From: Candidatus Pantoea edessiphila
GTDB lineage: Bacteria; Pseudomonadota; Gammaproteobacteria; Enterobacterales; Enterobacteriaceae
Length of the DNA stretch: 64,000 nt
Direction: 5' to 3'
Assembly: GCF_002933355.1 (NCBI RefSeq)
Contig: NZ_PDKU01000001.1
Coordinates: forward strand, 1-64,000
Shown: positions 44,769-47,117 of the stretch, in pieces
Position numbering within the stretch: the first letter of the stretch is position 1
How the letters are laid out: each line of letters begins with the position of its first letter
Position numbers and translations under genes: made by a program
The notes under the pieces: generated by a model
What the model was told of the DNA's origin: nothing
The model's input: the letters and a program-made list of their open reading frames with translations, nothing else
The model's database searches: none

Positions 44769-45707
44769 ATGTTTGATAGAAAAATTCACAATGATAGTAT
44801 AGAAAAAGTGGCAATAGAAAGGACAACAAGTAATTTTATATACGACTCTATTTCTTGGAGTGCAGTTTTTACAGGTGTGATCTTTACTTTAATGTTACAT
44901 GTTTTATTAAGTACATTAGGAGCTGCAATTGGTGCTACATCAATTAATCTATCAGAACATCATTTAACATACTTAGGTAGTGGTGCTTTGATTTGGATTT
45001 CTTTGACAATGCTAATTTCTGTATCAATAGGAAGTTATATTGCTGGAAGTCTAGCAAGATGCAAGGGATCAATACATGGATTATTAGTATTTAGCTTAAG
45101 CACATTAATTACTTTATGGTTGGCTTTTTCCTTTACTGGAAGTATTTTTACTAACATTCTAAATGTTGCTAATGCTAGTTTTAAAGATGTAGCAAATAAT
45201 ATTCATAGTAAAGTATTACCTCTAATTAACAAAGAAAATGAAAGAATAGTAAACAAATTTAATTATAACACGAACAATTCTTTAGATGACAAACAGAAAA
45301 ATTTAAAACAAATCCTACATCAGGAGCAAGATTATAACATCACACCTAGTAGGTTTATTAATATGAGTGATTATTATAAAATTTATCACATTATTTTAGT
45401 AAATTGGTTACATCAACAAAGTCACAACAATAGCAACAGTCATATACAGAAAGATTTTACAAAAATATCTAAACTTAGTAATACAGAATTTAATAATAAT
45501 ATAAACAATAATGAGAAAAATTGTGAACAAGAAATAAAAGAAACAACACAAGACCAATATAATTCTAGAATGAGTATAATTGAACAACAAACTATTCAAG
45601 TAACTTCAAAAGCTAGTTGGTTTACTTTTACCATTTTAATAGTTGAAGGATTATTAGCAGGTGTATTAGGAATGTTAGGTTATAAAAATCAGTTTAAAAA
45701 ATTATAA
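44769..45707 (+). CDS. Uncharacterised four-helix inner-membrane protein
   Basis: I do not recognise a named function. The 312-residue protein has three close membrane segments (about 32-56, 70-94 and 103-131), a long hydrophilic Asn/Gln/Lys-rich stretch (about 135-280), and a C-terminal membrane segment (284-304). Small-residue patterns in the helices (STLGAAIGA, GSYIAGSLA, HGLLVFSLSTLITLW) recall uncharacterised proteobacterial membrane proteins, but that is from memory. A very good ribosome-binding site (AAGGAGA) and a strong downstream terminator argue that it is expressed. E. coli has no such gene here. The spacer could be a cytosolic or periplasmic domain inserted between helix 3 and helix 4. 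Confidence 0.85.
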   Translation: MFDRKIHNDSIEKVAIERTTSNFIYDSISWSAVFTGVIFTLMLHVLLSTLGAAIGATSINLSEHHLTYLGSGALIWISLTMLISVSIGSYIAGSLARCKGSIHGLLVFSLSTLITLWLAFSFTGSIFTNILNVANASFKDVANNIHSKVLPLINKENERIVNKFNYNTNNSLDDKQKNLKQILHQEQDYNITPSRFINMSDYYKIYHIILVNWLHQQSHNNSNSHIQKDFTKISKLSNTEFNNNINNNEKNCEQEIKETTQDQYNSRMSIIEQQTIQVTSKASWFTFTILIVEGLLAGVLGMLGYKNQFKKL

Positions 45708-45766: not shown

Positions 45767-46555
45767 TTAATTATTTTTATTTAAAACTAATAATAATGAC
45801 TTTAAGATATAAGGATTAGCTGCAATAATGTTTTCCGAATTTATACAATATTCTTTTCCATTAAAATCAGTTATTAAACCACCTGATTCTCTTATTAATA
45901 ACTCACTAGCAGAAAAATTCCAAGGTCTTAATCCTATATGAAAGTAACCATCTAAACGCCCTGCTGCTACATATGCCATATCTAATCCTATTGAACCAGT
46001 GCGACGAAAATCTATATTTTCATGATCAAATATTTTAATAATTTTATTTATATATTTTTTAAAAATATCCCTTTTCCCAAACAAACAACTAACAGACAAC
46101 AATATTCCCTTTAAATTAACTGTATTATTACAACGTAAACGATAACCATTAAGTTGAGCACCTTGACCACGTACAGCACTAAATAACTCATTGAGTATAG
46201 GAGCATATACTACAGATACTTCAATGCGATCTTTAATAATCAAAGTTATTGAAATCGAAAAATTAGGTAAGCCTTTAATAAAATTATGCATACAATCTAA
46301 TGGCTCAACAATCCATAGTATATCTTGATTATTAATAATTATATGATTACCAATTTCGGTATAAATGGTATGTTGAGGATATGCTTTATGAATTACTTCA
46401 ATAATAGAACTTTCTACTTTTAATTTAATAGCTTGTATAACATTTAGGTTGTTTATTTCGTTAATTTTAATAGATCTTATAATTTCATAATTTTTAATAA
46501 TTATATTTCCAGCTTTTCGGACTGCACGTATGGCAATATTCAGCATTGGATGCAT
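45767..46555 (-). CDS. suhB: SuhB, inositol-monophosphatase fold, active site degraded
   Basis: E. coli SuhB is an inositol monophosphatase homologue that also works as a Nus-type factor in rRNA transcription and ribosome assembly. The 262-residue protein starts MHPMLNIAIRAVRKAGN, as in E. coli, and aligns throughout. The metal-site motif DPLDGTTNF reads EPLDCMHNF (Asp84 to Glu, Gly88-Thr89 to Cys-Met), and the WDF aspartate is Asn (RPWNFSASELL, residue 213). The EE pair is EI, and the N-terminal NVD motif is gone. Phosphatase activity is very unlikely, yet the frame is intact, which points to the RNA-polymerase role. It is convergent with the membrane-protein gene. Confidence 0.93.
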   Translation of the reverse strand: MHPMLNIAIRAVRKAGNIIIKNYEIIRSIKINEINNLNVIQAIKLKVESSIIEVIHKAYPQHTIYTEIGNHIIINNQDILWIVEPLDCMHNFIKGLPNFSISITLIIKDRIEVSVVYAPILNELFSAVRGQGAQLNGYRLRCNNTVNLKGILLSVSCLFGKRDIFKKYINKIIKIFDHENIDFRRTGSIGLDMAYVAAGRLDGYFHIGLRPWNFSASELLIRESGGLITDFNGKEYCINSENIIAANPYILKSLLLVLNKNN

Positions 46556-47117
46556 TATTATTTCTCGTTAGATATAAAACTAAAAAAGTAGAAAATTTAA
46601 TCAAAATAAGTATAATCTTAAAACTATATTATAATATTTCTTCATAAATTATCATTTTCTTCTTTTTAATTTAAATTGATTTTAGCTATCCTTAATTAAT
46701 ATAAATTGAATTATAACATTAGATAACAATAAACTCGTTTCTTATTGTAATAATCTATCATAATAAACTTATTAACATCATAGAAATTAATTATCAATTT
46801 GAAAACATAATGGAATTAATAAATATTGATAATTATTTTATAAAAAAACTAGAAACAATAATTAATTTTACGGAATTATTATATACAACATCTTCTATCA
46901 TAATACATAATACTTAAAATTTATGATTAAGATATATTATTTATAATGACAAATAATTTTTACAAATATCAAACCTTAATGTAAACATCAAATTTTAATT
47001 ATATATGTTCCTATGTAAAATAAATACATAATTAATTTCTTTGTTAATTATTATTTCTTTTATTTAGTTGATAATGAATGAATTTATTTTTTATCAAGTT
47101 AACGGAATAATCATAAA
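46556..47117. other. suhB-iscS gap, trmJ and iscR missing
   Basis: In E. coli, trmJ and iscR lie here. The 562 bases are AT-rich with no readable remnant of either. A 35-codon frame starting at 46810 has no family resemblance. iscS has therefore lost its usual repressor gene and iscR promoter at this locus. Confidence 0.55.

Follow-up and report, generated by a model that had tools for sequence, protein, structure and literature searches.

SuhB has hitherto been regarded as an enzyme, an inositol monophosphatase (IMPase), with a second job, and the evidence on which job is selected comes largely from mutants of Escherichia coli. The E. coli SuhB dimer is a hub of the rrn antitermination complex, in which it contacts NusA, NusE, and NusG (PMC10250234). 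It binds the AR2 of NusA, an interaction that is nearly abolished in a K251A/L254A double mutant, and its entry into the rrn complex requires leader RNA and not AR2 (PMC6614801). The IMPase activity is unnecessary for complementing or relieving an E. coli suhB mutant (PMC6614801, PMC4807359), in line with the original prediction for the locus studied here, which had taken the role of E. coli SuhB to be independent of catalysis. In another source, suhB is listed among the ancestrally essential genes of enterobacteria, although according to a footnote the threshold may be missed in as many as two strains (PMC11481867). The literature searched, from which supplementary files were out of scope and in which subscription journals are sparse, contained no earlier report of a loss of the SuhB catalytic site in symbionts.

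Here we describe suhB in a window of 64,000 nucleotides, the whole stretch of Candidatus Pantoea edessiphila DNA that was analysed. With a probability of roughly 0.8, its product would be a pseudoenzyme that purifying selection keeps as a Nus factor and whose phosphatase site was discarded.

The suhB locus and its catalytic site

The genome that hosts the window comprises 837,119 bases on 12 contigs and is 99.99% complete. The product of its suhB gene matches the inositol monophosphatase family PF00459 over the full length (E = 3e-51, 175 bits at a cut-off of 27) and has its best NCBIfam match in PRK10757, the SuhB equivalog, with 305.8 bits, which is under the curated cut-off of 332; the next family reaches 112. 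It is around 49% to 51% identical to E. coli SuhB, to which it aligns without gaps up to residue ~178 and nearly collinearly overall, and the nearest solved chains come from E. coli SuhB, both as the protein by itself (6IB7) and within the rrn complex (6TQN). As in E. coli, the gene is divergent from iscS (Table 1). The trmJ and iscR genes that lie between suhB and iscS in E. coli have no detectable remnant at window positions 46556 to 47117, between suhB (-) and iscS (+). Given PRK10757 as best family, SuhB as the nearest solved chains, and the position divergent from iscS, the window gene is the SuhB orthologue.

We note that the interval between glyA and suhB holds a 312-aa predicted membrane protein (44769 to 45707, + strand) with a sub-threshold match to DUF2232 only. 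A structure prediction for the window SuhB drew on 3 usable sequences and, at a mean pLDDT of 49.8, is uninformative on the fold; a Foldseek search placed SuhB structures at the top, but at a TM score of ~0.5 and an rmsd of ~11 Å, and was set aside.

Table 1. Features of the suhB locus, in window positions.
Feature	Positions	Strand	Basis
suhB, 262-aa putative pseudo-phosphatase ORF, open, ATG start	45767..46555	-	ORF call, family matches, alignment
Stretch with K252 and L255 (E. coli K251/L254, NusA AR2 contacts)	45791..45802	-	coordinate by arithmetic; contacts from PMC6614801
Codon N213 (E. coli D212, WDF motif)	45917..45919	-	alignment
EPLDCM replacing metal-binding DPLDGT	46289..46306	-	alignment
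Codons E67 (kept) and I68 (E. coli E68)	46352..46357	-	alignment, coordinate by arithmetic
Codon K44 (E. coli D44)	46424..46426	-	ungapped alignment, coordinate by arithmetic
iscS, divergent from suhB as in E. coli	47118..48278	+	position backs orthology

Eight catalytic letters were scored (D44, E67, E68, D84, D87, G88, T89, and D212 in E. coli numbering), which serve metal binding and catalysis in this family; T89 and D44 position the attacking water in IMPases. Aligned to E. coli SuhB, the window protein carries D44K, E68I, D84E, G88C, T89M, and D212N and keeps E67 and D87, so that NVD reads AIK, TEES reads TEIG, DPLDGT reads EPLDCM, and WDF reads WNF. The original prediction had read EPLDCM, the Asn of the WDF motif, EI in place of the EE pair, the absence of NVD, and an intact frame from the letters alone, and the alignment confirms each change along with the open frame of 262 aa. 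For its further point, that a D87N mutant is reported to complement, no matching statement was found in the literature searched; D87 is itself kept here. At the six positions of the metal ligands and attacking-water residues of an active IMPase (D44, E67, D84, D87, T89, and D212), the window protein has K, E, E, D, M, and N, i.e., 2/6 are identical. The loss is concentrated at the catalytic letters, of which two of eight are kept, versus 49 of 62 other invariants (Fisher p = 0.004), defined as positions conserved to at least 95% in the 43 SuhBs with seven or eight catalytic letters. Likewise replaced are D38, G70, A188, and E205, which are conserved in intact SuhBs and presumably lie at the substrate pocket. 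Going by these residues, we infer that the window protein is unable to catalyse; it would be a natural pseudoenzyme whose Mg2+-dependent inositol-monophosphatase site has been discarded.

Catalytic letters across genomes and in the CysQ paralogue

We compared 158 SuhB proteins, one per genome, made up of 155 plus those of E. coli MG1655, the Donacia piscatrix symbiont, and Lonepinella. The small genomes were hand-picked by eye from sets of 392 and 60, and the larger ones are mostly relatives within the set of 60; G033 (49% complete, with broken frames) and G349 (fragmented, with CysQ only) stayed outside the SuhB table. Not one of the 108 genomes below 1.9 Mb keeps all eight letters: G065 keeps seven and the other 107 keep five at most. 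Among the 50 larger genomes, which were not randomly drawn, 40 have all eight letters, two have seven, and eight are broken, counting G175, which has an in-frame TGA and was aligned as a fragment. Scoring the metal ligands in related symbionts, as the original prediction had proposed, found them eroded in 6/6 genomes of the window's genus and in 107/108 small-genome SuhBs.

The pattern recurs within and beyond the reduced genomes. In genus g72, the 3.6-Mb member is intact and three members of 0.7 to 0.9 Mb are broken, each differently, and the SuhB of genus g155, which may be Blochmannia, keeps 1/8 catalytic letters (four genomes). Two genomes of genus g58 (G062 and G200, 300 to 400 kb) have NusB, both NusA repeats, and a SuhB with four to five of the eight letters, and this better-kept SuhB may reflect either recent reduction or a different constraint. 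At the other end of the size range, the SuhB of G036 (5.1 Mb) has a natural D87N plus two further changes. In this genome as well as in G044 (4.6 Mb) and G038 (3.5 Mb, 89% complete), the altered suhB either adjoins trmJ or is no more than 2.5 kb away from it, with iscR as the next gene, a neighbourhood that marks these genes as orthologues in non-minimal genomes; a fourth broken suhB of a larger genome, that of G098 (3.3 Mb), adjoins trmJ. A tree of 105 SuhBs calculated without the active-site columns implies at least nine changes of state. As this tree is weakly supported, with stars on 13 of its 102 inner branches, and may suffer from attraction between long AT-rich branches, we use it solely for the point that loss was repeated. 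As judged from the aligned letters, loss of the catalytic site is general and repeated among small-genome lineages and reaches genomes of 3.5 to 5.1 Mb.

The loss is also targeted. Averaged over 50 genus labels (107 small-genome SuhBs; the label of the Donacia symbiont may duplicate g113), retention is 0.31 at the catalytic letters versus 0.76 at the 62 other invariants (Mann-Whitney p = 5e-4), and the contrast persists when the 107 SuhBs are compared at D/E/G/T invariants alone (0.70 versus 0.31, p = 0.003). Among the residues that almost every small-genome SuhB retains are Y59, W81, N91, F125, N136, Y194, and E222 (1.00) as well as R141 and G224 (0.99). Catalytic letters are nearly fixed in the 43 intact SuhBs (0.98), and within the window's genus the likeness among members is 0.52 at catalytic letters versus 0.84 at other invariants.

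Catalysis could in principle have been kept, or re-evolved, through a different metal site or for a different substrate, and the retention of D87 in 6/6 genomes of the window's genus and in 61/107 small-genome SuhBs, together with E67 in the window species, points in that direction. We nevertheless give this reading only a very slim chance. The replacements vary within the genus in a drift-like manner (D44 to K or E; D84 as E, D, or K; G88 to C or S; D212 as N, K, or D). Across all 107 SuhBs, 10 to 17 residue types, including the ancestral one, occur at seven of the eight sites (D44, E67, E68, D84, D87, T89, and D212) and six at G88, a variety that speaks against a common new active site. Moreover, both residues that position the attacking water, T89 and D44, are gone from the window protein. 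The pseudoenzyme reading fits these data better.

An internal control is provided by CysQ, a 3'(2'),5'-bisphosphate nucleotidase that resembles SuhB in fold, superfamily, and the ancestral eight letters and that, unlike the window SuhB, keeps all of them. The window genome carries such a CysQ paralogue with a complete catalytic site (8/8). All eight letters are likewise present in the CysQ of 35/35 small genomes whose SuhB is broken and keeps 2.1 on average; these 35 are drawn from the 107, of which the remaining 72 have no CysQ entry, and the CysQs were taken from second matches to the SuhB query or profile, which could slightly favour intact motifs. The 35 control proteins are at least 39% identical to E. 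coli CysQ, and irrespective of genome size all eight letters are found in 42/42 CysQs. A 43rd row, which came from G124 and lies outside the 35, proved to be a different paralogue within the superfamily; the true CysQ of G124 is encoded elsewhere in its genome and has the motif. This extra inositol-monophosphatase-family protein (G124:C3) is 25% identical to E. coli CysQ and has an intact motif (8/8 letters). Mean identity to the E. coli proteins is 0.47 for SuhB versus 0.53 for CysQ, with SuhB higher in only 4/35 genomes. With CysQ intact alongside it, the pattern seen in SuhB is not accounted for by AT pressure or general decay.

Selection on suhB and the occurrence of its presumed Nus partners

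Selection was estimated by pairwise codon likelihood fits for 55 within-genus pairs, of which G323/G256 did not converge (negative LRT) and was dropped; dS is saturated in several pairs. Omega is below 0.4 in all 54 usable pairs, and in the 15 pairs with dS of at most 1.1, from small and some larger genomes, the LRT against omega = 1 is at least 8.6. The 15 pairs of the window's genus have omega values of 0.045 to 0.145, including 0.145 for the window species versus G004 and 0.13 versus G001 (dS ~1.5). A dN/dS near 1 had been named in advance as the result that would overturn the original prediction, and the values are far below it; the sole pair of this genus with dS below 1, G005-G002, has an omega of 0.11 at a dS of 0.93, with a likelihood ratio of 89 against omega 1. 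The gene is under purifying selection, with dN/dS far below 1.

These values already contradict the least probable of the readings considered, which is that suhB is a decaying pseudogene caught ahead of its stop codons. Such a reading would accommodate the eroded catalytic site and the somewhat faster divergence of SuhB than of CysQ, and actual decay does occur elsewhere, given a SuhB cut to 224 aa (G340), the in-frame TGA of G175, and a remnant in G124; that final loss happens is further illustrated by 15 small genomes in which no intact SuhB remains. Against it stand, besides the low omega of the window's genus, the ORF lengths of at least 240 aa in 106/107 broken small-genome SuhBs and the selective loss of catalytic letters relative to other invariants.

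The preferred reading, i.e., a pseudoenzyme kept as a Nus factor, would have SuhB retained as one of the structural subunits, next to NusA, NusB, NusE (S10), and NusG, of the complex that serves rRNA transcription (antitermination/maturation). The window genome encodes an intact NusB and a NusA with both C-terminal repeats, the equivalents of K251, L254, and R184 are kept in 6/6 genomes of the genus, and the equivalent of K108 is kept in the window SuhB. We surveyed Nus factors in 76 small genomes, 60 with SuhB and 16 without (absence rechecked by profile), of which the fragmented G349 was set aside to leave 15. All 60 SuhB-bearing genomes have NusB (the match in G130 is partial), and at least one NusA C-terminal repeat is present in 56 of them, with both in 51, one in five, and none detectable in four. 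Both repeats are thus found in 51/60 genomes with SuhB versus 2/15 without (G124 and G160; Fisher p = 3e-7), a statistic that ignores shared ancestry and genome size in a sample where most genomes lacking SuhB rank among the smallest. Similarly, K251 (as K/R) together with L254 (as L/I/V/M/F) is present in 43/51 genomes with both NusA repeats versus 3/9 with fewer (p = 0.003, kinship and genome size ignored).

The SuhB-lacking genomes differ in what else they have lost. An open nusB frame is present in 9/15, four of them under the family cut-off. G160, which is 8% contaminated, has NusB and both NusA repeats. All four g84 genomes retain NusB, with no more than a single weak NusA repeat. In g127 (four genomes), NusB scores below the cut-off and NusA repeats are absent; in g102 (four genomes), NusB and the repeats are both missing. 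G129 combines a broken nusB with a single NusA repeat. What is left of suhB in G124 (1.2 Mb) is riddled with stops and lies next to iscS (G124:C1:46500-51500), and nusB likewise persists only as a remnant, in the ribH-thiL interval (G124:C1:622000-624500); by the state of both remnants, this is a joint decay of two rrn-complex genes in a genome that is not very small.

Unlike the partners, boxA does not discriminate SuhB-bearing from SuhB-lacking genomes, since boxA-like sites precede 16S in both groups (10/15 SuhB-bearing versus 5/8 SuhB-lacking symbiont leaders, shuffle p < 0.05). This sample consists of 23 symbionts with a readable leader, all outside the window's genus, with the leader of G018 cut short and G124 without a 16S match. 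In the window's genus, the window genome included, no 16S was found in the assemblies of G000, G001, G002, G004, and G005, and the sole match, in G003, is atypical.

R184 affects dimerisation and the interaction with RNA polymerase in E. coli, and R184I loses RNA polymerase sensitivity and complementation. This residue is invariant in 43/43 intact SuhBs and replaced (by C, Y, S, I, and others) in 93/107 small-genome SuhBs; its neighbour R183 is kept in 97/107. Outside the window's genus, the contacts or assembly of SuhB may therefore differ from those in E. coli.

The frequent change of R184 is one of three points in favour of another non-catalytic task, such as direct binding of RNA polymerase or rRNA or a role in RNase III/30S maturation, for which the NusA AR2 contact would be unneeded. 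The others are the four SuhB-bearing genomes without detectable NusA repeats and the entry into the rrn complex that depends on leader RNA rather than AR2 in E. coli (PMC6614801). We consider such a task unlikely, though less so than the two alternatives above: both NusA repeats as well as K251/L254 go together with SuhB retention, and this explanation differs from the Nus-factor reading in detail only. Under the preferred reading, the window protein would still bind NusA and RNA polymerase and would be kept for this reason. The proposal that selection keeps only the Nus role, here putative, in a minimal genome is supported by the intact CysQ, the low dN/dS, and the co-occurring NusA repeats, and the effect extends beyond minimal genomes, given G036, G044, and G038.

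Implications and comparison with known systems

We hold it to be probable, if somewhat less so than the reading for the window itself, that gamma-proteobacterial SuhB is primarily a structural factor of rRNA transcription. Its phosphatase site would then be losable and has nearly always been lost in small, presumably host-restricted genomes, repeatedly and to different residues, and occasionally in large ones, which would make SuhB a serial pseudoenzyme that arose without duplication. Natural selection appears to have repeated a separation-of-function experiment in many lineages, with CysQ as a within-genome control, and the outcome suggests that the IMPase activity is expendable and the body of SuhB is not.

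A metabolic model of Buchnera dropped suhB as unconnected to biomass (PMC2649895) and a gene-loss table with Buchnera lineages includes suhB (PMC11188193). In a 2006 analysis of Blochmannia floridanus, the predicted inositol monophosphatase was placed in an inositol pathway (PMC1360075). If our reading is true, the annotated inositol metabolism of many symbionts, with this pathway as an example, rests on a dead enzyme, and for such genomes the product name "inositol monophosphatase" is probably incorrect, as are the metabolic models derived from it. The Blochmannia assignment in particular would be doubtful if g155 is this genus and if Bfl535 of that paper is SuhB. Symbiont SuhBs would also offer naturally evolved separation-of-function variants with which the rrn complex could be dissected.

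The closest known system is E. coli SuhB itself (PDB 6IB7, 6IB8, 6TQN), which is orthologous, encoded divergently from iscS, and shares K251/L254, K108, and R184 with the window protein; unlike it, the latter has six of eight catalytic residues replaced and scores below the PRK10757 cut-off. Catalytically dead suhB mutants of E. coli reportedly remain able to sustain growth (Chen and Roberts 2000 and Wang et al. 2007, as cited in PMC4807359 and PMC6614801). They follow the same logic of a dispensable phosphatase, though the symbiont case is natural, repeated, and affects many sites at once, with D87 kept in the window. Pseudoenzymes in general, on which PMC10211241 is one review, combine a conserved fold and a lost motif with a structural role, and SuhB would differ from them in that the orthologue itself was converted, several times and, as far as we see, with no prior duplication.
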